From a virus, in the IMG/VR virus record IMGVR_UViG_3300042320_001198, positions 1 through 47,562 of that record: a stretch of 47,562 nt of DNA; one strand, 5' to 3'. A program made the position numbers and the translations under genes. The notes under the pieces are model-generated. The model was given only the letters and a program-made list of their open reading frames with translations, searched no databases and had not been told where the DNA came from. Positions 4,164 to 30,801 of this stretch are shown in pieces (positions within the stretch are counted from its first letter, which is position 1; every line of letters starts with the position of its first letter).

Positions 4164-4222
4164 TGAATTGCAAGCAGGATTTACAGGTTGCCGGGATAGG
4201 CTCCCGGCTGGCCGTGGATTAC

Positions 4223-4588
4223 CTAAGCTACCTGCGCATACATTGCCAGCAATTGTTTCTTGGATATTTTCCGCTTAGTCCCCACCAACTGCATCAGCTG
4301 CCGAGTAGAGAGCTGAGCAATTTCTACCGGGGCCTGCACTTGCGCCATGGGCTGCGGCTGCTGTGGCGCTGGCTCAACTGCCGTGGGCTCCTCGACCGTT
4401 GCCGTGGGCTTTAGCCCCAGGGCAGCCACGTGAGCGGCGCTGAGCTGGGCATTGGTGCGATGGACCCAGAGGCCTAGGCAATAGCCCAGGGTGTAGGTGA
4501 ATGCGACGGTTTTAACAATTGCCTGGCCAACTTCATGCCAGTTGATTTGATCAATGAAATTGATTGTTGAATTGATGAACTTTTTCAT
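4223..4588 (-). CDS. Small membrane protein with C-terminal KISKKQL motif
   Basis: A 121-aa protein starting MKKFINSTINFIDQ. Residues ~22-40 (AIVKTVAFTYTLGYCLGLWV) form one membrane segment, then a Pro/Gln/Ala linker and a C-terminal segment IAQLSTRQLMQLVGTKRKISKKQLLAMYAQVA. That ending resembles the small SAP-like or Rho-N-like helical modules on many cyanobacterial and cyanophage proteins. I chose the ATG at 4588 because it follows leader copy B with the same 17-base hairpin gap as the gene at 3377; a longer reading to 4693 would run through the leader. Function unknown. Confidence 0.6.
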   Translation of the reverse strand: MKKFINSTINFIDQINWHEVGQAIVKTVAFTYTLGYCLGLWVHRTNAQLSAAHVAALGLKPTATVEEPTAVEPAPQQPQPMAQVQAPVEIAQLSTRQLMQLVGTKRKISKKQLLAMYAQVA

Positions 4589-4647
4589 TTTTTCGTGGGG
4601 GTTGTGGAGGTCTCCCTCCTTGAGATCACAGTAATCCATGCGTGACA
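4589..4647 (-). promoter_or_regulatory. Leader copy B with GAGA-loop hairpin
   Basis: Second copy of the leader at 3378-3439. On the minus strand: TGTCACGCATGG, ATTACTGT, AAGGAGG-GAGA-CCTCC hairpin (4619-4606), ACAACCCCC, A run, ATG at 4588. A TTGCGG 18 bases before TACTGT could be a -35. In copy A the stem has an extra base pair and a G-T pair, so the pairing is kept although bases differ. Confidence 0.6.
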
Positions 4648-4751: not shown

Positions 4752-6035
4752 ATGGACCTCCTCTCTGTCGCCTACGGCCGAGTCAGCACCGCCAGCGGCG
4801 AACAGCTGGCTGCCCTCGACGTGCAACTGGCCTGGCTCCAGGCGCAGGGGCCCGACGTGATCCTCTCTGACGTGGAATCCGGCCGAGTAGTGGCCAGGCC
4901 CAACTATCAGCAGCTGCGGGCGATGGTTGCCGCCGGCAGGGTGCGACTGGTGTTGGCAACGGCCCTCAGCCGGCTAGGCCGGGACGCAGCAGAGAGCGAT
5001 GCGTTCATCCGCCTCTGCGATGACCACGGCGCCCAGGTCCTGACACGGGACGATGGCCAGCTCACCATGGCCACGCCAGAGGATCTGCTGTTGACCCGGT
5101 TGAAGGGCTCGATCAGCCAGGGCGAATCGATGAGAATCAGCCAGCGGGTGAGGGGCGGCCTGGCCCAGGGCCGGGCATTGGGTAAACCCATGCGGGCCGC
5201 CTGTTGGGGGTATCAATTACGAGCCGATCGCACAGCATTCGAGCCGCACCCAATCGAGTTTGGGAAGGCGGCGCAGTTCATCGGCCACCTGCAGGCCAGC
5301 AGCTGGCGCATGTCGACCACCCTGCGCCAGCATCGGGACCTGTGCCCCTTCAGCAGCTGCCGCGCGGTGAGGGCCTGGCTGCTCAATCCCACCCTGCGTG
5401 GCGGGGTTGGCTATCACCAGCGGCCCAACCACGGGTTTGCCCAGGTCACCTGGGGACGCCATGAGGCGCTGCTGACTCATGCGCAGTACGCCGAGTTCGA
5501 GCGGCAGGTGGAAGCCAATAAATTGCTGTGGGGACACAACGCCACGGTTATCCACAGGCCGCTGACGGGGCTTGTGGAATGCAGTGAATGCGGCAACCGG
5601 TTGAAGTACATCGGCGCTCGAACCGTTCCCTCGTTGCAATGCAGAGGCACCCTGTGCAGTCAGATATACAAAGGCACTCGCGAAGATATAATCGTCCGCT
5701 ACGCGATCGCTGCCGTGGCCGCATCAGCAGCTGAGCGATTGGCCGCGGCAGTGGGTGAGGCTGAGCCGCCAGAGGCTGGCGAGCTACGGCGATCAATTGC
5801 AGCGCTGGAGTCCCTGGGGGATCCTGAGCTGACGCCCGTGATCGAGGCCAAGCGCTTGCGGCTGGAGGGGCTGCCCAGGGTCGAGCCCGTGGATCCGGGG
5901 CTCGTTCAGCGCATCAGCGACCTGAGGTGGTTCGACTCGTTGACCCGCGATGAGCTGAGGGAGGTGCTGCGGGCGACGGTGCAGCGGATTGTCGTGACCA
6001 CGCAGGCGCCGTCAGCCATTCGCCTGCGGCTGTAG
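4752..6035 (+). CDS. Large serine recombinase (phage integrase, XisF-like)
   Basis: A site-specific recombinase of 427 aa. The resolvase domain at residues 5-140 carries the catalytic Ser12 in YGRVSTASGEQ and the arginine cluster LATALSRLGRD (68-78). A recombinase domain follows to ~270. A zinc ribbon uses Cys277, 280, 297 and 302 (CSEC...C...C), and a C-terminal helical tail ends VQRIVVTT. The moderate length and style resemble cyanobacterial XisF-type recombinases that excise elements from developmental genes. It is the only integrase seen, so it should integrate and excise this phage. One HIP1-type GCGATCGC octamer lies in the gene at 5704. Confidence 0.9.
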   Translation: MDLLSVAYGRVSTASGEQLAALDVQLAWLQAQGPDVILSDVESGRVVARPNYQQLRAMVAAGRVRLVLATALSRLGRDAAESDAFIRLCDDHGAQVLTRDDGQLTMATPEDLLLTRLKGSISQGESMRISQRVRGGLAQGRALGKPMRAACWGYQLRADRTAFEPHPIEFGKAAQFIGHLQASSWRMSTTLRQHRDLCPFSSCRAVRAWLLNPTLRGGVGYHQRPNHGFAQVTWGRHEALLTHAQYAEFERQVEANKLLWGHNATVIHRPLTGLVECSECGNRLKYIGARTVPSLQCRGTLCSQIYKGTREDIIVRYAIAAVAASAAERLAAAVGEAEPPEAGELRRSIAALESLGDPELTPVIEAKRLRLEGLPRVEPVDPGLVQRISDLRWFDSLTRDELREVLRATVQRIVVTTQAPSAIRLRL

Positions 6036-14153: not shown

Positions 14154-17100
14154 TTAGGGAATTTGACGGCCAAAGCCGATAGCGGTGTAACTAAATTGCC
14201 GCGCCACTGCGACGGCAGCGCTGTTTCTAAATGTAATGCTAAACCCGGCTCTGGTGATGCTTGCCGGGTCCAGAACCCAGTAATCCCCTGCCGCGAGGTT
14301 GTAGCCGGTAATCCCAATATTTGGCGGTTCATAAAACGCTTCGGCAAACGTCACTGTCAACGCCGCCGCAGTGGTCAGCAGCGTGCCTGATTGCTCGATT
14401 CGCTGTTGCAGCTCCATAACTGCCCCCAGCTCGTCAATGATGATGTTGCACGCCGGGTCGCTGCTGGTTGCGTAAGCCTTGAACTGGAAGGCCCGGCCCC
14501 TCACAATTCCATTAGCCAACCCGCTCCACTCGCTCCACTGGGGGGCGGTGTTCGGGTCATGCGGCGTTGAGCGCACCAGCAGCGCTGCATCCACATCTCC
14601 ACCGGATGGGCCCGACCATGACGACCAGCCGCCGACCAGGCCATGGCGAGCGCTAACCAGATTCAGCTGATTGAGCGGTCGAGTAACAAAGCGCCGTTGG
14701 ATGTTTACATCAAATACTCCGCCCATGTCATAGGTTGAGCCGAACTCATATTCTCCCCTGGCAGCAACCGGCTGAGTCAGGGAAGAGTCGCTTGAGCCGA
14801 TAGACGCCACTGCAGCAACGCTGGCATACGAACTGAACAGAACACCACTCCCCAGCACCAAAGCATCAAAAGCAGGGCTATATAGCATTTCAATAGCGTT
14901 GCCATTGAACGGCGGCGATTCCTGATCCTCGGCGTATGTTTTCACCAGCAGCCTGGCCTGAGGCTGCGGCAGGTCGGCAACTACATAGGCGGTTCCAGCG
15001 GATTGGCGTCCGCCATCATCTTCAAAGCGCAGCAGATAGCTACCCTCCAGCAACGGCACACGCGCTTGCACCTGGCCACCATTGGCCGTTGCAATGCCAA
15101 TGGCCTCGCCCCATGCCGGGGTGTCGAGCCTGGGGCTGTGGCGGATCAGGACCTGCCCGCTCAACTTCACATCCAGGTCGAGAGCCTGATCCCAGGATAG
15201 GAGAGCAGTATCCGAGTCGACCGGCACTAGCGAGACGCCTGTTACATCAGTAGGTGGCGCTGTTTTGCCGTACGCGATAAACCGGAGCGCAGACGATTTG
15301 CCAGCCAGTAATCCGCGCAATCCCACGACCGTGATCTCGTAGGTGCCGGTCGCTGAATCTAATATCTCGCATGCAGGCGCTAGCGTGGTCTGCCTTTGCC
15401 AGTTGCCACCATTCAACCGCCACTGCACACGATAGCCGCTGGCGTCGGCGACAGATGTCCAGCTAAGCTGAATTTTAGCTGCTGCTCTGCCCTGCAATTC
15501 GTAGATCACTTCTATGCCGGTCAGGTTTCCCGGAGCGGCGGGACGTATATTCAGGTCAGTAATATCGCGCGGTTCTAGCGCCCATCCGTATTCAATATTA
15601 TTGAATACGGATGGGTCGTGGGCCATGGCGCCGATCTCATAATCCACGCCATTTGTTTCGCTAACGCCCAGCACCCGCCAGAGCGATTCTCTGACGGCAG
15701 TGGTCTCGAATTGCCAGATGCCATTCGGCATCGGTGCAGACGAAAACCCCGGCGACACTGTGAACACATTGCCAGCAATGCCGGTGACCGGCCGGGTCTG
15801 GGCCGTGCTGTCGTTGAGCTGCACGGACAGGGTGGGGCTGTTGGTGGCCGTCAGGCCCGCGGCGCTGTCGACAGTGATGGAGGTGGTAGTGGCCGCAGCG
15901 ATCCGCCCCCCTCGGCGGCTGCCTGCGCGTACTGGATCGGCGATGCCGATCACCTGCCCTGGCCTGGCAATGGAGCCGATCGCCAGGCCTGTTGTCGCCC
16001 CCACCAGCTCCTTTTCTTCCCATTCAGTGTGCAGCAGCCATTTGCCCCAGCGGGCTGCCTGGCCCCTGCTGGTGCAGCCGACCGCCTCGGTCTCGGCTTT
16101 GACTACTCCATATTTAATAATGGCATCCCTGCGCTCTACAAGCTCGTAGTCGTAGTCTTGGATGTCATTATTAAAGAATTTTACCACTGCAATAGTAGGC
16201 CGCTTACGTAAGCGGCTGCCTGAGTATTTGAAGCCCTCCGGTGACACGTTGGATGTGTTCAGCCTGAACGACACGTCTGCCGGCCTGTCCTGAGCAATAG
16301 TCATTGCGCTTTCCGACAAGTAGGGCATCGCTCGCATAATCGAGCAAAAATCTTGAATTAGTTTATAGGCGTCGGCGGGCTGATCAATAACCATATTGAC
16401 AGCAAACCTAGGCTCCCAGCCACCAAAGCCATCAGGAATCAATTGAGCGCTATATTGGCTAGCGGCAAAAAAAGCCCACCTATCTAGCTGGCTGGCGTCT
16501 ATGTGATCGCCAAAGCCATAGGGCTGCGTCAGTAGATCCCAGAGGCACCAGGCTGGATCTGTCGTCCACTGCGCCGCGCCAAAAGTTCCGTCCCATACGC
16601 CGCTATAGATCAAGCGCCCGTTGCTCGGATCAACTGCTGCGTTGCTGGGAATTTTTACCTCTAGGCCGTAAACGTCAAAGCTGCAAGTTGGAATACTATT
16701 GAACTGCTCAGCGCTTAGCCTGATTCCAGCGTGCGCAAAACCTGGATACGCTAGCTTAGCGTAGGTAATAGGGCTGTAGGTACTCCATACAAGTTGATTA
16801 AATAGATTGTTGCTGTTGCTGTCTGGGGTGACGCGCGACACCCGAATATCCACGGGGAACGCGCCAGTAATGGCGACCTGCACTTGCCGCTGATAGCCTT
16901 GCCTGGTGCGACCGCTGATCACATCGTCTACCACAGTAGTATAACCACCGCCGTTATACTGAATAGCAACGCGATAGTTTATGCTTGTCGTTAGGATGTC
17001 GTTTTTGTCTGTGTATTCTTCCAGTCGCGGCACGGTAATGGTTAGCCGCACGGCGTTAGCGGTAGCGTCCGTGACCGTTCTGGTAATCGGCGTAGATTGA

Positions 17101-18762: not shown

Positions 18763-19451
18763 GCGTAGCTAGTGCCAGCGCCAGGGAATCCGCCAAACGG
18801 TAGCTGGTTGTTGGCGCCCCAGTTGTTCTTACAATCCGATAGGCGCTTCCCGCAGTTAGGTGCAAACTGGCATTGAGTCGTGCTGGTCCACTGGCATAGC
18901 GTAACCATCTGGAACCGTGGTGCACGCACCGTGGAAAGGTCAAATGTGGCGCACAGCTCAAACTCAACTACCTCCCTGGTCTCCGCCTTTTTTTGATCTA
19001 CCCAGTACACCTGTCTGGGATACTCGTAGGTGGGATCTGGTGTGCCCCAGGGGTTGACATTGCCTGGGAAGTTCACTGCATCGAGATGCCTGGCGTGGAC
19101 CCGCAGGCGGCTGACCTGCGCCCCCTCTAGCCCGTTGGGCAGGCTGAGCAGTAGGCCGCTGATCAGGCCACCCGCAAACGGGTTATTGATGGTCAGCGGA
19201 ATATTGGCGACCCGTAGCGTGGGGCGCGGCAGTGATCCGGTGCCGGTCAGGGCAAACCCCTCAGCCTCTATAGGCAGCGCTTCGTAGGTGTTGCCGGCCC
19301 ACACTACGTCGCCGGTCTGTTTCGCGTTGATGCCGGCATGAAATCGATAGACCTGATTGACGCCGTGAATAGCCGCAAACAGCTGCAGCTCAAATAGCTC
19401 AATCAGAGCGGATGGGGCCGGGAGTTGCGCCTCGGCAAAGGGGATTGGCAT
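18759..19451 (-). CDS. Minor tail protein (lambda L-like)
   Basis: 230 aa. The C-terminal part keeps the four-cysteine pattern of gpL (Cys186, Cys194, Cys200, Cys207 within CQWTSTTQC...NCGKRLSDCKN), which in lambda holds an iron-sulfur cluster. The N-terminal half has the expected SALIELFELQL and YEALPIEAEGFALTGTGSLPRPTLRVAN segments. Tail-tip component. One base overlaps with M and four with K. Confidence 0.9.
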   Translation of the reverse strand: MPIPFAEAQLPAPSALIELFELQLFAAIHGVNQVYRFHAGINAKQTGDVVWAGNTYEALPIEAEGFALTGTGSLPRPTLRVANIPLTINNPFAGGLISGLLLSLPNGLEGAQVSRLRVHARHLDAVNFPGNVNPWGTPDPTYEYPRQVYWVDQKKAETREVVEFELCATFDLSTVRAPRFQMVTLCQWTSTTQCQFAPNCGKRLSDCKNNWGANNQLPFGGFPGAGTSYA

Positions 19452-19786
19452 TATAATTCAAACACCTGGATAAAGGTGGCCGTGATTTGATTGTTATTAA
19501 AATTGCTGTAGGTTACTTTCCATTCTGGGCATATGAATTTGCCAGCGCTGCCCCATGGCGGTGTCCAGCCAAATGACTCAGCGCCGCCCCTGGCGTCTAG
19601 AAATGCTTCAATCTGATCGCGCTCGGTGTTGCTGCGATTTTTGAATTGCAATGGATAAATTTTAGGGTTTGCATTAAGCCCCATTTTGATCCGCTGGCTA
19701 TAGCCATCTCCAAATTTGTGTTCGTAGACAGCTGGCTTGCTTTCCTTGGGAAGATCAAAATCTGGTGTCCAGGTGAAGGTAGCCAT
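19451..19786 (-). CDS. Minor tail protein (lambda M-like)
   Basis: 111 aa. FTWTPDFDLPKESKPAVYEHKFGDGYSQRIKMGLNANPKIYPLQFKNRS is the hallmark of the phage minor tail M family, and the end (WKVTYSNFNNNQITATFIQVFEL) also fits. It lies between the tape measure and L and shares one base with each. Part of the tail tip. Confidence 0.92.
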   Translation of the reverse strand: MATFTWTPDFDLPKESKPAVYEHKFGDGYSQRIKMGLNANPKIYPLQFKNRSNTERDQIEAFLDARGGAESFGWTPPWGSAGKFICPEWKVTYSNFNNNQITATFIQVFEL

Positions 19787-22700
19787 TAGCGGTTCAGGAG
19801 GCCTCCTCGCTCCATGTGCCGCTGCAATTGCCGATCGACCATGGGCCCCACCATCGGCACCAACATGCGAGCCAGATCGTTACCCAGGGTTTTAGCGTCG
19901 CCGGAGCCGTCGCTGTTGCTGGTCACGTTGCCGTTGGGGTGGACGTGAACCGCAATATTCACCTGGGTCGACCTGGTGGCGCCGCTATCGCCCTGCGCGT
20001 GGTCCACCACAGTCTCCTGCGGGTGGAGCATGGCCATGAAGCCGCCGCGGCCATCTAGTCCGCCAGATCTGGCGCCATTGCCGGTGAAGCCGCCGCCGGC
20101 AAACCTAGGCAAATTGGTCATCCCTGCCGGCGGCAGCGCCCAATTGCCCACGCTGCCAATGCCAGGGCTAAACGCTGGCGCCTGGGGAAAGCCCGTGCTC
20201 AGTCCATAGTTCCCTGTGAATGATTGCGACATTGTCGGCATTGCAGCCGACGGTGACAGGAACCCCAGCACCTGCATAATGCTTTTTAGAACAAACTGCC
20301 GCACAATCATGCGGCTGGTATCTTCTAATACGCTGGCTGCAAACGCACGAAAATTGCCGCTGCCAGTTGTGGCCAGGCTTACTAGGCTATTCTCCAACCC
20401 GCCCATGCTGTTGACGGTTAGAGACGCAATTGCATCGCGCACATTGCCAATCGATTCGCCATATTGCTTCATCCCCTGCGATAAGCCAGCGCCAGCGGAA
20501 TCGCGAGATTGATATTCCCTGATCGCATCGCCCATGGCGAACACATTTTCCAGACGCTGTCGATCGAGGTCGAGCTGCTCTGCGGTGATCCGTTTGAGAT
20601 CCTCGCGATAGGTAAGCTCCGCCCGGCCGGACTCGGCAGCCTGAGCCGCGTTATACGCCGCCTGGGCGTCTGGGTTGCCGTTGACACCCTTGAGTAGCTC
20701 GGCATAGCGCCGCGCCCGCTCTGCCCGCTCCGCCTCGAACTCAGCCAGGGCCTTCGCGGCGGGGCCCGTGGCCTCGGCAATCCTCAGCAGCCCCTGGTTA
20801 GTGGCCAGCAGCTCGCGGGCGCTGGCCAGCTGATCGGCTCGGGTTTTCTGCAGCGCCGCGGCTTCCTCGGCGCCCTGCACCTGATTAGCGCCGGCTTGGG
20901 CCAGGTCGTAGCCCACATTCTCCATGCTGCCGCCGAAAAACATGCGCAACACCTGCTGACGGTGCGGGCCCATGCGGGCCACTCCGCTGGTGGGGGTGAC
21001 GCCATTGCCGTCCGTGCGGGTCAGGCTGGCCGTGGGGTTGCCCCCCAGCACCGTGCGGTAGAGCGTCAGCAGGTCGGCGCCCTGGGTGGACATTCCTCGG
21101 CCCTTGAATCGATCCTGGAAAAACTTCACCACAGGCCCCTGAACCTGTTCCTCGAACGATTGGCCAGCATGGGCGCCGTATTTCTTGCGTTCTGGGCCGC
21201 CCATTTGAATCAGGCCTAGATAGTTATTGTCAGAGCCGCCCCACTTGCCTGGGTTAAATGTGCCGCCAGTCTCAAACGAAATAATCGTTGCCAAATCAAG
21301 CGGCGATACGCCTAGCTTGCCGGCGGCGCTGATCAGGGCGCGGGCTTTGCTGCTGGGCTGGAAGCTGGTGCTGGTGCCTGGGCCGCCGCCGCCGCCGACG
21401 CCGCCTGGGCCGCCGCCTGGGCCGCTGCCTGCGCCGCTGCCTGCGCCGCTGCCAACAGTCTTCTCCACCAGCGCACGCATGGCGGGGTCGTCAGGCTTGG
21501 TCCCCGCGTACATGCGATTGCCGCGAATGCCGCCGCCCTGCTGTTGGCGCGTGACAAAGTCAGCCCAGTTGGGATCAACCTGGCCCCCCTTGACGCTAGG
21601 CATGGTCGGCTTAAGCAATGCGCCAGTATTAGGGTCGAACTGCCCCGCAACACCTGCAACGCTATAAGGGCTAAGGTATGTAAACCCTTTAGTGATTATT
21701 GGCGAGCCGGGCTTATATGGTACGCCTTTGGGTTCAGCTGGCTTGTCAAGCATGCTGCCTACGTCCGTAAGCCTGCGCCATTGCTGATCGGCCTGTATTA
21801 TCTTGGTCATTAGCTCAAGCGTCTTGACCAGCGCCGGCAGGTAAGCTCTACCTGCATTAGCTGAAAAATCTTTCCATGCATTACTAAATTGCTTAACAGG
21901 ATCAACGGCTTGCTTTGCTGCCTTAGCTGCCTGCCCCGTCAATGTGTCCATATTTTGCAGCGACTTGTTATATCCCTTAAGCCCGTCATTAGTCAATGAT
22001 ACAACGGCCTTAAATCCGTCAATGTCCGAGAAAAGCACGCCAAGAGCTGACGCGCTACCTTTGGTTTTTACCATTACGTCCTGCAGGAAGCCGCCTAATC
22101 CCTTGGCCTGCAAGCCAGCAACGCTAAACTCTATGCCTAGCGCCGCCGCAAGCTTTTTCGCTTCTTCGGTTGGTTTGATGATGCTTTTGATTGTTTGGTT
22201 CAGGCCACTCATTGTGGTCTCAACCGGTGCGCCCTTGGCTGTCAGCGCCGAGATGGCGGCATTCATCTCCTCAACCGACAGGCCCGCCACCGCAAATGAT
22301 GGCGCCAGCCGACCAATAGATTGCGCGTACTGATCAACTACAATTTTGCCATCATTCTGAGTTTGCACCATTTGATCAACAACCTTTGCAGCTTTATCAG
22401 CGGAAAGGTTGAATGAGTTCATAATGGACGTTGCGCCATCCGCAACGGTTTTAATATCTGAAAAACCGCCAGTGGCGCCTAGTGTCGATGCCTTAAGAAT
22501 TTTGATAACGTCGTCGGTTTTGCTAAAGCCAGAGCTAAGGATTTCATAGGCTGCGGCGCCTGCTTCTGCGCTATTCGATAGATTCCCCTGCGCTACAGTT
22601 AGCTCCCTGATTTTTGCCATCAGGGCGTCTGAGTCTGCGGTTAGCGTCCGCACCCGCCGCAGGCTGGCGTATTCGTCCAGCGCCGATCTCGTGCTGCTGG

Positions 22701-25623
22701 CAACTGCGGCCCCAGCTGCTGCCACTCCCGCGCCCGCCACGATGCCGGCAGGACCGCCAGAGAACGCCAGCCCCCCAGCCAGGGCCCCAATGGCGCCCTG
22801 CGCACCACCGCCACTGGCCAGGGTGCCCAGGGCGCTGCCGATTGCCTCGCGGCCAATTCCTTGCCGCTGCATATCCTGCTGTTTTCGCTGGGTTGCGGTC
22901 AGCTTGGCCAGCTTCTCATCGAGCTGCTGCACCTGCGCCGTCGCCCTGGCATAGGCCGGTGCTGCTGGATTCACCGCGACCCGGAGCGCTTCCCAGGCGC
23001 TGCGTTGCCGCTGCAGGCTGCTGACGCTGCCGTTGCTTGCCGCCGTCACCCGATCGATGGTGATGAACAGCTCGGCAAGGGCGCCCCGTGTGCGCTGGCT
23101 GGCTTGCGCGGTGGCATTGCTGGCCACGCCGAATTGAGGGCCGGCGTAGTCGCTGGCGCCACCGAACGCGGCACGGCGAGAGCGATCGACGCCCATGATC
23201 AATGGCCGCTCGCCGCCGCCAGCGGCAATGGCTGCCCTGGCACCGCCGCCAAAGCCGCGGCTATCAATTGCGCCTTGGAAGGCGGTCTGCCCTGCTGCTG
23301 GGAGGGCCAGCGTGCGAGCTGGGGCCCCAGCAAATGCCGGTGTGTATCGTGCCCGCGCCAGCAGGCCGGCCTCCAGTGCAGCCGCTGCGGCCTGCTGGGA
23401 TGCAGCGATCTGATCGAGCTGCCGATCCAAGGCCTTCAGCTGGTCGGCCGCTCGCGCAAAAACTGGCGCTGCTGGGTTGACCGCGTTTTGCAGCGCAGCC
23501 CATGCCGTTCGCTGTTGGTTGATGCTGCCGATGCTGCCATTGCTGGCAGCTGTAACCCGGTCGATCTGCAGGTACAGCTCAGCCAGGGCGCCACGGGTGC
23601 GCTGGGCGGCATCCTGTTGTTGCCGCAACACCGCATCAGATCGGCTGGCCATCACCTGGCCGATGTCGTCGCGGGTGCCGGCGGTTTCGAAGCTGCCGCC
23701 TCGCAGTCGCCGCATGCCGTCACCGACGCCAAAGCCCGCGGCATCGACGCGACCTTGGAAGCTGGTCTGCCCGGCTGCCGGGAGGGCCAGCGTGCGCGAT
23801 GGCGGGAACGCTGCAGCAGCCCGAGCCGCAAGCGCCGCCTGCCGCTCTGCCTCGGCAGTCGCTTTTACCGCAGCCGTGAGCTGTTGCTGAGCCTCCAGCC
23901 GATCGCGGACGCCCTGCACCAGCGCCTTCTGCTCACCCTTGATCCGGTTGATCTCCCGCTCAGCCGACACCACGGCATTGGCTGCTCGACGGGCCTCCGC
24001 CGAATCGCTGGGCACCTCGCCCAACCGCTGCAGGTTGCGATCCCTCAGCTCTTGCTGGGCCTCCAATCGAGCGTTGGGCACCTTGTCGTAGATGCGCACC
24101 AGATCGCTCAAAACCTTCTGGGCGCCGTCGCTGATGCCACGGAATGAGGCCTCTAGATCGGCCTGCGCTGCATCGGCCTGGCGACTCAGAACCTGATAGA
24201 CCCCAGCAATTGCCAGCGATGCCACGCCGGCCGCAGCCGACGCTTCAGGCCCGATAGCGCTGATGGCGTTGCCAATGGCCTCGAATGGCCCAGATAGCGC
24301 CGTCAGTTTGGCTTGGGCAGCGGTGAGAGATGCCGACCACTGGCCCACGCTGTTGGCCGCTGCTGCCGCCGGTTCTGATAGCAGGCCGCCCAGGGGTTTC
24401 AACACCCCAGGCATTGCTGCGGCCTTGGCCGCAATCGCATCGAGGCTGTTGGCCAAGCCCTGTGCGCCGCCGGCCATGCCGCCCAGGCCCGATGCCATCC
24501 CCATGCCGGCGGCACCGGCAACACCAGATGCTGCCAGCCCTTCACCGGTGAGCACCACCCGGCCCATCATTGAGCGGGCTAGGTCCTGGCGCATCGCCAC
24601 AATGTTTTGCACGGCGCCGACCGTGCCCCGCGCCACGTTGCCAGGGGTGACCTGGAGGCCCTTGCTCAGATCGAGGCTGGCGGCCTTCTGGCGCAGTGCG
24701 TCGATCTCGCGGCCAACCCGTCGGTAGGCGTCGCCGGCCTCACCTAGCGTCGCCTGCAGCAGGGTGACCTGACGCGACTGCTGAGCGACGGATTCACCTG
24801 CGGCCTTTGAAAATAATTTCCAGCCGCGAATCCCAGGCTCCCAGGCCAGCCCGATCTGTACCGCGCGATCTTTGAGTTTGTCTAGTTCTGCCGTGTGCTG
24901 GCGAATATCGCCACCACCTCGCCGCATCAATTCTATAAATTCCCGCTGCTCCTGAATTTGCTGACCCAGTGAGTCAGCGTGCGCCTGCCCAGCTGCAGCA
25001 GCGCGTTTCAGGTTGTTGGCATTATTGCTAGATTCAATATCTGCGGCTTTGGTAATCGCCGTAAGCCGCTGAATATCGCTGCTCAGTGCATTAAAGGTGC
25101 TGCCGTTAATCTCCGCTTGGCTGCGTAGATTCTTTAGCGCAGTGAGCTGCAGATTTATGGAGCGCTCAGATTGAGTATTGGCGGCACCATATTGCAAAAC
25201 GCTTTCGCGTAATTTTGCTAGTTGCGCTTCGGCCGGCTGCAGGAAATCTTGCAGCTTGCGAATGCTAGCGGCGCCTTTCACCGCCGATCCGCTCAGCCCA
25301 TCAAAGGCGCCGGTGCTCTGGCCCTTGATCCGCTGAAAATCAGCACCCAGGGCCTTGGCCTCGCCGCCCATCCGCCGCATCTCAGCAGCGCCGGCCTGGG
25401 CACCGGTGCGCAAGGCCTGGAGCGCTACCGCCTGACTCCTGGCTGCTGCGCCGGCTCGCGCCGATTCATTGGCGGCCCGGCTGGCTTCCTGCGCCGCCTG
25501 CTGTAGGCCGGTGCTGGCATTTTTGGCCGAGCTTTCGACCCCCTGCAACCCTTCGCCCAGCGTCTTGATCTCATTGACGCCAGCAACCTGGGCCGAGATC
25601 CTCAGGATTGCGTCTTGACTCAC
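19786..25623 (-). CDS. Tail tape measure protein with lysozyme-like domain
   Basis: 1945 aa, setting tail length. Residues 1-330 are coiled-coil. Around 560-960 a ~160-residue module is duplicated (ARTLALPAAGQT-FQG at ~609 and ~769, with TRGALAEL-IDRVTAASNGS following each). A TP901-type core spans ~990-1275 (ADKAAKVVDQMVQTQNDGKIVVDQYAQSIGRLAPSF). A Gly/Pro-rich linker is followed at ~1427-1575 by a transglycosylase/lysozyme-like domain with a candidate catalytic Glu in IISFETGGTFNPG. The lambda-H C-terminal domain lies at ~1690-1810 (ENSLVSLATTGSGNFRAFAASVLEDTSRMIVRQF). The wall-cutting domain would help DNA entry. Confidence 0.93.
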   Translation of the reverse strand: MSQDAILRISAQVAGVNEIKTLGEGLQGVESSAKNASTGLQQAAQEASRAANESARAGAAARSQAVALQALRTGAQAGAAEMRRMGGEAKALGADFQRIKGQSTGAFDGLSGSAVKGAASIRKLQDFLQPAEAQLAKLRESVLQYGAANTQSERSINLQLTALKNLRSQAEINGSTFNALSSDIQRLTAITKAADIESSNNANNLKRAAAAGQAHADSLGQQIQEQREFIELMRRGGGDIRQHTAELDKLKDRAVQIGLAWEPGIRGWKLFSKAAGESVAQQSRQVTLLQATLGEAGDAYRRVGREIDALRQKAASLDLSKGLQVTPGNVARGTVGAVQNIVAMRQDLARSMMGRVVLTGEGLAASGVAGAAGMGMASGLGGMAGGAQGLANSLDAIAAKAAAMPGVLKPLGGLLSEPAAAAANSVGQWSASLTAAQAKLTALSGPFEAIGNAISAIGPEASAAAGVASLAIAGVYQVLSRQADAAQADLEASFRGISDGAQKVLSDLVRIYDKVPNARLEAQQELRDRNLQRLGEVPSDSAEARRAANAVVSAEREINRIKGEQKALVQGVRDRLEAQQQLTAAVKATAEAERQAALAARAAAAFPPSRTLALPAAGQTSFQGRVDAAGFGVGDGMRRLRGGSFETAGTRDDIGQVMASRSDAVLRQQQDAAQRTRGALAELYLQIDRVTAASNGSIGSINQQRTAWAALQNAVNPAAPVFARAADQLKALDRQLDQIAASQQAAAAALEAGLLARARYTPAFAGAPARTLALPAAGQTAFQGAIDSRGFGGGARAAIAAGGGERPLIMGVDRSRRAAFGGASDYAGPQFGVASNATAQASQRTRGALAELFITIDRVTAASNGSVSSLQRQRSAWEALRVAVNPAAPAYARATAQVQQLDEKLAKLTATQRKQQDMQRQGIGREAIGSALGTLASGGGAQGAIGALAGGLAFSGGPAGIVAGAGVAAAGAAVASSTRSALDEYASLRRVRTLTADSDALMAKIRELTVAQGNLSNSAEAGAAAYEILSSGFSKTDDVIKILKASTLGATGGFSDIKTVADGATSIMNSFNLSADKAAKVVDQMVQTQNDGKIVVDQYAQSIGRLAPSFAVAGLSVEEMNAAISALTAKGAPVETTMSGLNQTIKSIIKPTEEAKKLAAALGIEFSVAGLQAKGLGGFLQDVMVKTKGSASALGVLFSDIDGFKAVVSLTNDGLKGYNKSLQNMDTLTGQAAKAAKQAVDPVKQFSNAWKDFSANAGRAYLPALVKTLELMTKIIQADQQWRRLTDVGSMLDKPAEPKGVPYKPGSPIITKGFTYLSPYSVAGVAGQFDPNTGALLKPTMPSVKGGQVDPNWADFVTRQQQGGGIRGNRMYAGTKPDDPAMRALVEKTVGSGAGSGAGSGPGGGPGGVGGGGGPGTSTSFQPSSKARALISAAGKLGVSPLDLATIISFETGGTFNPGKWGGSDNNYLGLIQMGGPERKKYGAHAGQSFEEQVQGPVVKFFQDRFKGRGMSTQGADLLTLYRTVLGGNPTASLTRTDGNGVTPTSGVARMGPHRQQVLRMFFGGSMENVGYDLAQAGANQVQGAEEAAALQKTRADQLASARELLATNQGLLRIAEATGPAAKALAEFEAERAERARRYAELLKGVNGNPDAQAAYNAAQAAESGRAELTYREDLKRITAEQLDLDRQRLENVFAMGDAIREYQSRDSAGAGLSQGMKQYGESIGNVRDAIASLTVNSMGGLENSLVSLATTGSGNFRAFAASVLEDTSRMIVRQFVLKSIMQVLGFLSPSAAMPTMSQSFTGNYGLSTGFPQAPAFSPGIGSVGNWALPPAGMTNLPRFAGGGFTGNGARSGGLDGRGGFMAMLHPQETVVDHAQGDSGATRSTQVNIAVHVHPNGNVTSNSDGSGDAKTLGNDLARMLVPMVGPMVDRQLQRHMERGGLLNR

Positions 25624-25625
25624 GA

Positions 25626-25868
25626 CTAGGCCTCCTGTGCGCGAAGAGCAGTGAGCGCGGCATGCTCCATCACCCGCAACCGCTCCACCATGGCCCGGTG
25701 GTCAGGCACCTCGTAGAGCTCAAACAGCTTGCCTGGGCCCAGATAGGTATTGAGGTCGAGGCATTCTCGACCGTTCATACTGAATTGCCACTGCCCTCGA
25801 CAGAACATCATCACGGCCTCCCAGTTGGCGGGGAGCACCGGATAATCAATGGCTGCAGGCTCGGGCAT
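25626..25868 (-). CDS. Tail chaperone T frame (DUF1799-like), made as GT fusion
   Basis: 80 aa from its own ATG, with LPANWEAVMMFCRGQWQFSMNGRECLDLNTYLG resembling DUF1799, the lambda T-like tail chaperone region. The same frame is open upstream to the slippery site at 25979-25973. A -1 shift from G would therefore give a 246-aa GT fusion: 131 residues of G, then 35 linking residues starting LLGAAEYW, then this domain. Translation from the internal ATG is possible but not needed. GT contacts the tape measure during tail assembly. Confidence 0.8.
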   Translation of the reverse strand: MPEPAAIDYPVLPANWEAVMMFCRGQWQFSMNGRECLDLNTYLGPGKLFELYEVPDHRAMVERLRVMEHAALTALRAQEA

Positions 25869-25879
25869 GGCGGGGAGTG

Positions 25880-26365
25880 CTACACCGAAGGCTGCGGCGG
25901 CGGCGATGGCGTCGGGAGAGTAAGGGGCTTTTCGCTTACCGCCGGTTGCCCAGTATTCAGCGGCGCCGAGTAGTTTTTTTCTTCGCCTTCAGTGTCGAGG
26001 CTTTCGATCCATCTGTCGATAATGGCCCGCAAAGCGCCTTTAATGCTGAGCACTCTGTTCCGAGCAACTTCATCAAATAGCACGGAATTGCCCCCAGGCT
26101 CAACGATGTCATCCCAGCCGCCCAGGATGATGTCAACTATCTGCCGATCGGTTCGGGGCTCCCTGGTTTTTTCGTCTTCTGTTAGCTCATCTTGCTGCCC
26201 AGCGGCCCGCCAGAAATCAACGAATACATCCCTGATTTGCTGTACGTCCAATCTATGAAACCGCGCCGTAAATTTGATCTCTACTGGCGTGCTGGGGCTG
26301 TCGCCCGCCACTTTCCAGCTCACCTCGCGCGGGTAGGTGGGAGACAGGTCAAGAACAAAGGTCAT
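25880..26365 (-). CDS. Tail assembly chaperone G
   Basis: 161 aa, directly after the tail tube gene. The body (VEIKFTARFHRLDVQQIRDVFVDFWRAAGQQDELTEDEKTREPRTDRQIVDIILGGWDDI) fits siphophage tail assembly chaperones, and the zero-frame end is a short Pro-rich tail (LPTPSPPPQPSV). A programmed -1 frameshift at codons AAA-AAC (residues 130-131) produces the longer GT form. Both forms are expected in a fixed ratio and neither is in the finished virion. Confidence 0.85.
   Translation of the reverse strand: MTFVLDLSPTYPREVSWKVAGDSPSTPVEIKFTARFHRLDVQQIRDVFVDFWRAAGQQDELTEDEKTREPRTDRQIVDIILGGWDDIVEPGGNSVLFDEVARNRVLSIKGALRAIIDRWIESLDTEGEEKNYSAPLNTGQPAVSEKPLTLPTPSPPPQPSV
25973..25979 (-). other. Programmed -1 frameshift slippery site A-AAA-AAC
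   Basis: On the minus strand the heptamer is phased as X-XXY-YYZ in the G frame (codons GAA AAA AAC). After a -1 slip the frame reads 35 stop-free codons straight into the T domain. About eight bases downstream, CGCCG and CGGCG can form a stem with a ~16-nt loop that may stimulate slipping. Confidence 0.85.
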
Positions 26366-26413: not shown

Positions 26414-27367
26414 TTAGGTAAATGCAAACGTGTGGCCATCGTTGCCTGTAGTGCTGGGAAGCAAAATGCCCGGCACCGTCATCATTACCACCCCGTTGTC
26501 GCTGCTATAAGAAGGAATCAGCGTCTTGGCCCTGGCAGCTGCAAATGCCACGCGGTTGCCGTTGGTAATGCCTTGGGTGACACCGAGGGCCCCAGTGGTA
26601 TTAGTAAGCGCAGCTGCAAATGGGTCGAATACCGATTGCAGCGGGGCCTCGTAGACGGCTTCGAACATCGTGGTCTGCATACCGGTGATCAACACCTCTT
26701 TGGCGCCACCTGGCCGGGAGTTATAAATCGTGTCATTTGTCAACGTCACCCGGAAGCTTTGCAAATACGGAGCGGTATAACCCGCAATGTTTATGTTCAG
26801 CGTATTGCCCAGGGTGACCGGTAGCGCAAGCGGCGCTGTAGTGGAGAATGTATAAGTAGGCAGCGCCGTTGTAACGGGGCCTGCGTAGATTCCAATGCCC
26901 TGGAAGGTAAAGTAGCCCTTATCGTTATTAACCAGCTCAAATGTCACTGAAGAGCCGCGCCAACCGGTGACGGCGTGGCGGGAGCCGTTGTACCAGATGT
27001 GGCAAGTGACGCTAGTAGCGGCGGCGCCAATTGTACTAATCTCGGAATAAGTATTAGACGTGGTGGCTACAGTAGTCAGCGCGTGGCGGGTGGCCTGTAG
27101 CAGTGGGCCATAGCGCGGCGCAGTACCGGCGGCGCCGCTGCCGTTGACCTCCACCTTGAAATTGACCGCGTAATGCTCGCCGACAACCATTTGCCGCTGG
27201 CCGCCCATAAACGGCCGCACCAGGCTCTCGGTGATAACTTCCCCGCGCATCTCGGGGATTACCGGTTCAACGCAAAGAATAGCGTCATTGGCTGTAGGAA
27301 CAGCATCGACGCCATAGGCGGTCTCCAGCTTGACCAGCGCTAGGTTTTCAACTGCAAAATTGGCCAT
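26414..27367 (-). CDS. Major tail tube protein (lambda V-like position)
   Basis: 317 aa. The start MANFAVENLALVKLETAYGVDAVPTANDAILCVEPVIPEMRGEVITESLVRPFMGGQRQMVVGEHYAVNFKVEVNGSG is a common opening of siphophage tail tube proteins. The remainder is beta-rich with Gly/Thr strands. It stacks as hexamers around the tape measure. Its position between U-like and the chaperones confirms the role. Confidence 0.9.
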   Translation of the reverse strand: MANFAVENLALVKLETAYGVDAVPTANDAILCVEPVIPEMRGEVITESLVRPFMGGQRQMVVGEHYAVNFKVEVNGSGAAGTAPRYGPLLQATRHALTTVATTSNTYSEISTIGAAATSVTCHIWYNGSRHAVTGWRGSSVTFELVNNDKGYFTFQGIGIYAGPVTTALPTYTFSTTAPLALPVTLGNTLNINIAGYTAPYLQSFRVTLTNDTIYNSRPGGAKEVLITGMQTTMFEAVYEAPLQSVFDPFAAALTNTTGALGVTQGITNGNRVAFAAARAKTLIPSYSSDNGVVMMTVPGILLPSTTGNDGHTFAFT

Positions 27368-28441: not shown

Positions 28442-28816
28442 TCAGGCTAGCGAGTCTGAGGCTGACTCACCATCGCCGGGTTCCGGATTCAGCTCGGGCA
28501 GTCGAACAATGGTGGCCGTGCCGTCAAGGTGCAATGTGACATCCCAGGGGGCCATCAGCTGCAATCGGTCGGCAGTGCAGCCTGGAGAATATTTTTCCAG
28601 CAACTCGCACAAGTCAGCGGACAGCGCAAACATTCCAGCCGCTGTAATCCCTAACTCCGCGACCGTTGCCGGTGGATCTGCGCATTGCCAAATTTTGTCC
28701 ATACCCATTTGCCATGCGTTCAGCATGGAAGTAAGCGTGCTGAGTGCTATAGTCTGCACTTCTAGCGCGGCTCGTTTTGCCTGGGCATTGCTGCTGAGGG
28801 CTTGAATCGTATTCAT
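28442..28816 (-). CDS. Hypothetical protein, 124 aa
   Basis: A helical N-terminal half (MNTIQALSSNAQAKRAALEVQTIALSTLTSMLNAWQMGMDKIWQ) and a beta C-terminal half (WDVTLHLDGTATIVRLPELNPEPGDGE). Unknown family. It overlaps the upstream 662-aa structural gene by four bases, so it is probably co-expressed and may help that protein fold or attach. Confidence 0.6.
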   Translation of the reverse strand: MNTIQALSSNAQAKRAALEVQTIALSTLTSMLNAWQMGMDKIWQCADPPATVAELGITAAGMFALSADLCELLEKYSPGCTADRLQLMAPWDVTLHLDGTATIVRLPELNPEPGDGESASDSLA

Positions 28817-30801
28817 GGGTTAAAACCTTTCAGAAGTACATAATTTAGGATTGTAGTGCCGCCAGATCCGGCGGTAACGACAATCCCCCGAATAGCCTGG
28901 GTGTGTACGTTGGCGACGGTAACGCTCATCGGCGTTGCCGCGTTTGCCGCAAGCGCATTGCCAATGTTGTACCACGCGGCTGTTGGCGATTGCCAATCGT
29001 CCTCCGTGCCCTGCATTTGAACTACCGGGGCAATGGTGCCGATAGCGTCAGCCCTGATTACCATTTGCAGGTTGCGGCAATCGCCAACAATCAGAGCTGG
29101 CGTCACGGACGAGGCTGTAGTTAGCGATATGGTGCGGTCATAGCGCTGGCGAATAACACCAGGCGCTGCATTAAAGACAAGGCGAACAATTGAGCGCGTG
29201 AGCTGCGTTCCAGTGTTTAGGGTTTGAACGTAGCGCCACCTGTTGCCACCAAGAATCAGCACTGGAGACCTGTACTGGCCATTTGCTGTAATGCGCGGCA
29301 AATCATAAATAACATACCAGGTTGCGCCAGAGTCGCCGGATTGCTCAATCCTAAAATCGGCCCAGGCGTTTGCCCCTGATATGCTGCTTATTGAAATCTC
29401 AACTGCAAAACCAAGCCCCGAACCCGGCGAGATGTTGGCTGAAGTTACGCTGGCGGATATTGTCGCTGAACCAACGTCAGTGGTGGGGGATGTTGTCGCC
29501 AGGGAAAAAACTGAGCCGGACACCGGCACGATTGCTTGGACGCTAGGCGTAAATGATGTTTCACTCCATCGCTGTAGACTAACGTGAACCGTGCCCCCAG
29601 TTGTTGCGGTAGCCAATCGCAATCTAAACCACAACGCGTAAACGCTTGTGTTATAATTACCTACGGCAAACGTCGTAGGAACAGCGCCAGATGTGGCATT
29701 TATTAATTGGGCAGTAAATACGCCAACGCTGAAAGAGCTATCTGGCGCCCACTCTGCCACAACCAGGCCACCTGTGCCTATTGAAAAACACTGCATCGAC
29801 AGCATGCGCGTATTGGCGCAGTCGATTGGGCCGATCAGAGTTGTGTTGACGCTCAGCGGGCCAGGAGTTGCCTGCTGGTAGACCGAATTGATAGGCGCGG
29901 CCGGCGACGCAACAACAGGCAACGCCGTGCCGCCGCTGGCGCCCTGCACCGACAACACATCCCCGCTGGGGGTTCCGGGAACGCCAATAGCTGGCTGTCT
30001 AGCGGCTGTGGCCGCGCCGGTCGGCAGGCTGGGCTCCACCAACAGCCGACCACTGCTCAGCTCGGCCGGGAGCCGATTCAACAGCGCCTGGTAGAGCACC
30101 TGCACTAATCCTGCGAGGCCGCTGGCGCCAGTTGGCAGGGTGGGGGCATCTGTGCCGGTGACGCCCAGCCTGCCGTCAATGCTGCCCAGCGCAGCATTAG
30201 ATGCCGCCTGGTTGGTGGCTGTGGATGCATCAGTCGCCAACGACGGTTCAACCTGCAGCCGCGTGCCGGATAGGGTCAGAATTGGCAGCCTCTCAGTCAG
30301 CTGCACGTTGGTCAGAGGGCCAGAGACCGGCTGAGTTGTCTGCCAAAAAGTCCCTGAAACCGGCTGAGTTGCTGGCCAAAACGTTCCGCTGACTGGCACT
30401 GGCTGAGCCCTCAGCTCAACGTCAGTCAGCGGTCCAGATACGGGCCACCGTCCACCGTCCAGCGGCGGCAATTTGTCGCCGATGCCACCCAGCAAGACAT
30501 TCCCGGCTGCCTGCAGTGCGCTGGTAGCGCCTATTTCGCTGTCATCAATAACAATTTGCAGCGCATCGCCGCTGTTCATTGCTGTGGTGACGATCTCAAG
30601 CGTTAAAACGCCTGTGGTCGCGTTATATGCGCCGCCACGCCCCGACTGTACGGGCAGATAAAGATAAATCTCATTAGAAGTATTGACAATGCTGACAATC
30701 TGTGCCTGATGCGTTGGCCTCGTAGATCCCGCTGCAAACGTCACCGTTCCAGCCGTTGGGCTAAACGTAAACAACGATGGGTCGAGCGGTGGCTTGCGCA
30801 T
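28813..30801 (-). CDS. Virion structural protein, possible head fibre
   Basis: 662 aa. The beta-rich N-terminus (FTFSPTAGTVTFAAGSTRPTHQAQIVSIVNTSNEIYLYLP) precedes imperfect repeats VPVSGTFWPATQ / PVSGTFWQTTQ / PVSGPLTNVQL and Pro/Gly/Thr-rich segments, then a large beta-sandwich-like C-terminus. Such repeats are common in phage decoration and fibre proteins. It lies between FII-like and U-like genes, a place where lambda has no fibre, so a neck or head fibre is a reasonable guess. It shares one base with the FII-like stop. Confidence 0.65.
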   Translation of the reverse strand: MRKPPLDPSLFTFSPTAGTVTFAAGSTRPTHQAQIVSIVNTSNEIYLYLPVQSGRGGAYNATTGVLTLEIVTTAMNSGDALQIVIDDSEIGATSALQAAGNVLLGGIGDKLPPLDGGRWPVSGPLTDVELRAQPVPVSGTFWPATQPVSGTFWQTTQPVSGPLTNVQLTERLPILTLSGTRLQVEPSLATDASTATNQAASNAALGSIDGRLGVTGTDAPTLPTGASGLAGLVQVLYQALLNRLPAELSSGRLLVEPSLPTGAATAARQPAIGVPGTPSGDVLSVQGASGGTALPVVASPAAPINSVYQQATPGPLSVNTTLIGPIDCANTRMLSMQCFSIGTGGLVVAEWAPDSSFSVGVFTAQLINATSGAVPTTFAVGNYNTSVYALWFRLRLATATTGGTVHVSLQRWSETSFTPSVQAIVPVSGSVFSLATTSPTTDVGSATISASVTSANISPGSGLGFAVEISISSISGANAWADFRIEQSGDSGATWYVIYDLPRITANGQYRSPVLILGGNRWRYVQTLNTGTQLTRSIVRLVFNAAPGVIRQRYDRTISLTTASSVTPALIVGDCRNLQMVIRADAIGTIAPVVQMQGTEDDWQSPTAAWYNIGNALAANAATPMSVTVANVHTQAIRGIVVTAGSGGTTILNYVLLKGFNP

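Follow-up and report, generated by a model that had tools for sequence, protein, structure and literature searches.

A lambda-type G/GT tail assembly chaperone gene with a probable –1 ribosomal frameshift into a DUF1799 domain in a metagenomic virus record

In the stretch of virus DNA analyzed here (47,562 nucleotides, referred to as the window), two overlapping open reading frames (ORFs) sit between the major tail gene and the tape-measure gene. The second, T, lies in the –1 frame relative to the first, G, without a start of its own, and a phased slippery heptamer is found near the end of G. How, then, is T translated? In phage lambda, the tail assembly chaperones G and GT and the mechanism behind them have been described (Levin 1993; Xu 2004, as cited in PMC5009743), and the slip itself is already well known from lambda and many other phages. 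An earlier note on this DNA had proposed that a –1 frameshift joins G and T. The record, a virus contig, carries a virion module of lambda type: the head-side genes encode a GpA terminase, a lambda-family portal, an S49 protease and a capsid protein E (slightly under the cut-off), the gene order runs from tail terminator to Phage_tube_2 tail tube, G/T and a tape measure with a lambda C-domain, and after the tape measure come minor tail, tail assembly and J-like proteins, i.e., lambda-like tail genes. The place of G/T between tail tube and tape measure is canonical.

The codons of G across the heptamer (25979-25973, minus strand) are GAA AAA AAC, which is the phase required for tandem –1 slippage and the phase that the earlier note had assigned to it. 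Past the heptamer the –1 frame reads LLGAAEYWATGGKR..., beginning LLGAAEYW, and it remains open for 115 codons up to a TAG stop (25628-25626, minus strand); the predicted length of the GT protein, 246 aa, was confirmed from this reading. Upstream of the heptamer the T frame is open for only a few codons, its first ATG (at 25868) is 35 codons past the slip, and for a +1 shift there is no long G frame in the register concerned. The anatomy and phase of the locus and its gene order, together with the family assignment and the conservation of site and frame described below, are direct observations. Coordinates are collected in Table 1.

Table 1. Position of the G/T locus, its signals and its neighboring genes in the window
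Feature	Position	Strand	Remarks
Tail tube (major tail) protein gene, upstream of G	26414..27367	minus	PF18906 Phage_tube_2, E 6e-8
Gene G, tail assembly chaperone	25880..26365	minus	ORF, 161 aa, 0-frame product
Weak SD-like GAAGG, possible stimulator	25986..25990	minus	6 nt upstream of heptamer
Slippery heptamer A_AAA_AAC	25973..25979	minus	In phase with G
T extension, DUF1799, –1 frame	25626..25973	minus	115 codons + stop TAG; predicted GT fusion 246 aa
Possible downstream stem GCCGCUG/CGGCGGU	25938..25964; arms 25964-25958, 25944-25938	minus	Not above controls in the window
First ATG of T frame	25866..25868	minus	Rejected as T start
Tape-measure gene, downstream of T	19786..25623	minus	1945 aa, GTG start, strong ribosome site; PF10145 + Tape_meas_lam_C

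The T reading of the window matches DUF1799 (PF08809) with an E-value of 2e-6 and 28.3 bits vs a curated cut-off of 26, in agreement with the earlier description of an open –1 frame leading into a DUF1799-like domain, and the PF08809 match was present in 28/28 members of the T alignment. The window's own G is under the Pfam cut-off for Phage_TAC_4 (PF08748; 13.7 vs 21.1 bits) and reaches an E-value of 0.005 with PHROG 569, and its family assignment rests on relatives. Among 29 aligned G sequences, 25 matched Phage_TAC_4 (E 0.1 or better; best 7e-7), 28 matched PHROG 569 (best E 2e-22), and 18 aligned G sequences matched PHROG 313, ‘Tail assembly chaperone’. The matches to Phage_TAC_4 and PHROG 569 in relatives, and the position between tail tube and tape measure, agree with the identification of G and T as tail chaperones. 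The AlphaFold2 model of G has good confidence as far as about residue 126, and the part beyond, i.e., around and past the slip site, is disordered; the T model (pLDDT 65) was too poor for structure search. Foldseek gave no match under E 0.001 for the G model in the PDB, and VIA-align of G with the HK97 gp13-like chaperone 2ob9 gave a Z of 2.4 with an rmsd of 6.0 over 88 residues. Against viral models, G matched a 118-aa protein of Edwardsiella phage eiAU (E 7e-5). A frameshifted pair between the tail and tape-measure genes of eiAU has been reported, with one member of 118 aa (PMC3025963), and from its length alone the matched protein would be that member.

To relate the heptamer to chance expectation, phased sites were counted in the minus-strand genes of the window. 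Sites of any X_XXY_YYZ kind occur at 0.0027 per codon, i.e., about 0.1 expected in the overlap, and phased strong heptamers of the A_AAA_AAC class number 3 in 9910 codons, i.e., about 0.01 expected. The other two strong heptamers are GGGAAAC at 15531 (minus strand) in a J-like gene and AAAAAAG at 18993 (minus strand) in an L-like gene, and their –1 frames close after just 16 and 7 codons, respectively. The window is a single metagenomic record, and the heptamer could in principle be there by chance, or one gene could have been split by a sequencing error; however, the same arrangement recurs in contigs L003-L011, which are independent, and in relatives whose T is 30-49% identical. A chance or sequencing-error origin is already contradicted by these comparative data, and we assign it a vanishingly small probability.

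With the predicted GT protein as query, 66 loci were obtained, the T alignment added more, and nine isolate phages were found via the tail-tube protein; in phage records BLAST matched GT neither as DNA nor as protein, and a scan of genome contigs gave no confirmed relative. Removal of identical regions left 72 distinct loci (9 from isolate phages), in three of which the contig ends within G, so that 69 non-truncated loci were counted; these are not independent, and fall into 32 groups at 85% identity and 18 at a stricter cut. A correctly phased slippery heptamer stands at the junction in 69/69, and loci with the heptamer destroyed and both frames intact, which the earlier note had named as evidence against its reading, number 0/69. 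The heptamer is G_GGA_AAC in 42 loci, A_AAA_AAC in 26 and T_TTT_TTC in one (Microcystis phage yong1). The G stop follows the heptamer directly in 57/69 and one codon later in 5, and it lies 60 nt past the heptamer in yong1 and 90-93 nt past it in the window's clade, with its six loci. Many relatives have, from the –1-frame stop on the upstream side to the 0-frame G stop on the downstream side, an overlap of just 7-10 nt, which is little more than the heptamer and leaves nearly no other place for a shift. The same arrangement was seen in the nine isolate phages, one of which is annotated ‘potential –1 frameshift’ beside its DUF1799 gene.

These heptamers also bear on whether RNA polymerase, and not the ribosome, changes the frame. 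Transcriptional slippage could act on a run of seven A's such as is present in the window and in 14/26 of the A_AAA_AAC relatives. However, just six A's are found in 12/26 of those relatives, and the site is G_GGA_AAC, not a homopolymer, in 42/69; because of this, the mechanism common to the family is most likely ribosomal, and we regard transcriptional slippage as extremely unlikely.

In the T alignment, K and L at the heptamer never vary, nor do the A, W and G residues that come after them, and this T start, KL-x2-AA-x-YW-x2-GG, is coded in the –1 frame from the slip site, before the first ATG of the window. T might instead be translated alone, without a frameshift, from that ATG or from a non-AUG codon near the slip site: the ATG, 35 codons into the T frame, would give an 80-aa ORF, and several isolate phages are annotated with T from an internal start. 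Such initiation at the ATG would, however, drop the conserved start of T, which opens with the slip, 35 codons ahead of any ATG. The ribosome site of the ATG is also weak, with a best duplex of –3.0 kcal/mol vs –10.3 kcal/mol for the tape-measure gene, and in relatives the –1-frame codon at the heptamer end is CTA, CTC, CTG or CTT, with CAA in yong1, so that a Leu is conserved there and not a usual start. An internal start would further leave the retention of the heptamer in every relative unexplained, and we consider it very unlikely.

Taken as a whole, the sequence comparisons make us almost certain that this is a tail assembly chaperone gene of the lambda G/GT type with a –1 frameshift. The phage very probably makes two versions of its tail chaperone through a –1 slip at a run of A's; the site looks real, but it is ordinary. 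Most ribosomes would read G through to its stop, yielding the 161-aa G protein, and a minority, with two tRNAs on AAA AAC, would slip back one base so that the tRNAs pair anew with AAA AAA; translation in the –1 frame would then yield the 246-aa GT protein, which carries the DUF1799 T domain at its C-terminus. Following the lambda precedent, G would coat the tape-measure protein and the T part would recruit tail-tube subunits. We infer the slippage itself, its rate and these chaperone roles. Shifting of 6-7% was reported for two tail chaperone genes in another study (PMC3711429). Speaking against a shift in the window, A_AAA_AAC shifts less readily in E. coli than A_AAA_AAG does (PMC5009743).

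Shine-Dalgarno (SD)-like stimulators upstream of the slip site are known from dnaX. Both flanks of the heptamer were considered here. The earlier note had pointed to a possible stem, CGCCG/CGGCG, about eight bases downstream; the stem GCCGCUG/CGGCGGU does form in the minimum free energy structure of a 43-nt fragment, 8 nt past the heptamer, but it is not stronger than in dinucleotide shuffles (z –0.21), and the window region past the heptamer is not more stable than in synonymous-codon shuffles (z +0.37). In longer fragments other folds replace the stem. Of the points made in the earlier note, a stimulatory stem is the only one that is not supported in the window. Across 32 relatives, stability at 11-46 nt past the heptamer exceeds that of synonymous shuffles (mean z –1.25); the excess is only suggestive, because the same test reaches t –3.8 at unrelated positions in the same genes, and because the window and its clade member L008 show no excess structure at 11-46 nt. 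Upstream, pairing was scored to the 3' end of 16S rRNA, with an E. coli-type anti-SD assumed. At 3-6 nt upstream of the heptamer the family mean was about –5.0 kcal/mol vs –3.2 kcal/mol in synonymous shuffles, an enrichment with t –5.5 for the 32 groups and t –4.1 for the 18 distant ones, and none of the positions more than 12 nt upstream of the heptamer in G passed t –2.5. The upstream SD-like element is better supported family-wide than the downstream stem, and an SD-like sequence upstream of the heptamer (25980-25995, minus strand, and the corresponding place in relatives) is a possible general stimulator. In the window itself the element, GAAGG, is weak, with a best duplex of –4.3 kcal/mol on the same anti-SD assumption.

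The one unusual feature of the window's clade (L003-L011) is the loss of the stop adjacent to the heptamer, giving G an extra tail of 30-31 residues. This tail, residues 132-161 of G (25880-25972, minus strand), is found in the window's clade alone; it is proline-rich, predicted to be disordered, and overprinted on the T start. When the window is compared with L008, divergence is as fast in the overlap as in the remaining G (0.17 per site), a 34-nt identical block covers AAEYWATGGKR, and the G tail is more different than the T reading. This pattern of divergence would fit selection mainly on the T frame, and the G tail appears to be a by-product of the lost stop codon. A tentative and rather doubtful extension is that, in the DUF1799 branch, the upstream SD-like element and a directly adjacent G stop stimulate the slip, and that the window's clade, in losing this stop and overprinting a proline-rich G tail on the T start, possibly changed its G:GT ratio.

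How does the locus compare with known systems? Lambda uses the slippery heptamer G_GGA_AAG. The lambda G/GT gene shares with the window the same place in the tail operon, a –1 slip near the end of G, a T extension and the surrounding lambda-like tail genes, whereas the window differs in its A_AAA_AAC heptamer and in a T that is DUF1799. At the g-t junction of haloarchaeal tailed viruses, both G_GGA_AAC and A_AAA_AAC are used (PMC5009743). Genes 49/50 of Rhodobacter phage RcapMu (JN190960), a record that annotates a ‘potential –1 frameshift’, likewise have a DUF1799 T read from a phased heptamer, but there G_GGA_AAC is followed at once by TGA, leaving no G tail past the heptamer. Acinetobacter phage Loki resembles the window in a predicted –1 shift at AAAAAAC in chaperone genes gp12/gp13 after the major tail gene, and its heptamer is directly before the G stop (PMC5313236), the stop that the window's clade has lost. 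In D3112-like Pseudomonas phages, e.g., PaMx73, there is, as in the window, a long 0-frame run past the slip site, but at a different heptamer, T_TTT_TTC, 43 codons before the G stop (PMC4378225). Synechococcus phages S-CBS1, S-CBS3 and S-LBS1 have a tail tube homologous to that of the window (33-38% identity) and share its A_AAA_AAC heptamer and a DUF1799-like T in the –1 frame; unlike in the window, TGA comes directly after the heptamer, and the shift is unannotated in their records.

With these comparisons, the G/GT frameshift is firmly extended to a phage group that is large and mostly uncultured, has DUF1799 T domains, and uses A_AAA_AAC or G_GGA_AAC and not the AAG sites favoured in E. 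coli. The GT protein is absent from several isolate records because T was annotated there from a false internal start. In S-CBS1 (4227-4628), S-LBS1 (4176-4640) and S-CBS3 (4244-4630), i.e., loci L069, L070 and L071, the annotated T has an internal start, and in S-LBS1 it is a 47-aa ORF; in all three the conserved T begins at A_AAA_AAC just before the G stop, and GT is missing from the records.

Some further features of the window were observed outside the G/T locus. A Resolvase-domain protein of 427 aa (4752-6035, plus strand) is possibly a large serine integrase, and because of this the phage may be temperate. Neither an Rfam match nor a tRNA was found in the window. A thymidylate kinase gene is carried on the phage contig at 547-1215 (plus strand; PF02223, E 9e-35), and between the head and tail genes a 662-aa protein (28813-30801, minus strand) contains the short repeats PVSGTFW/TQPVSG.
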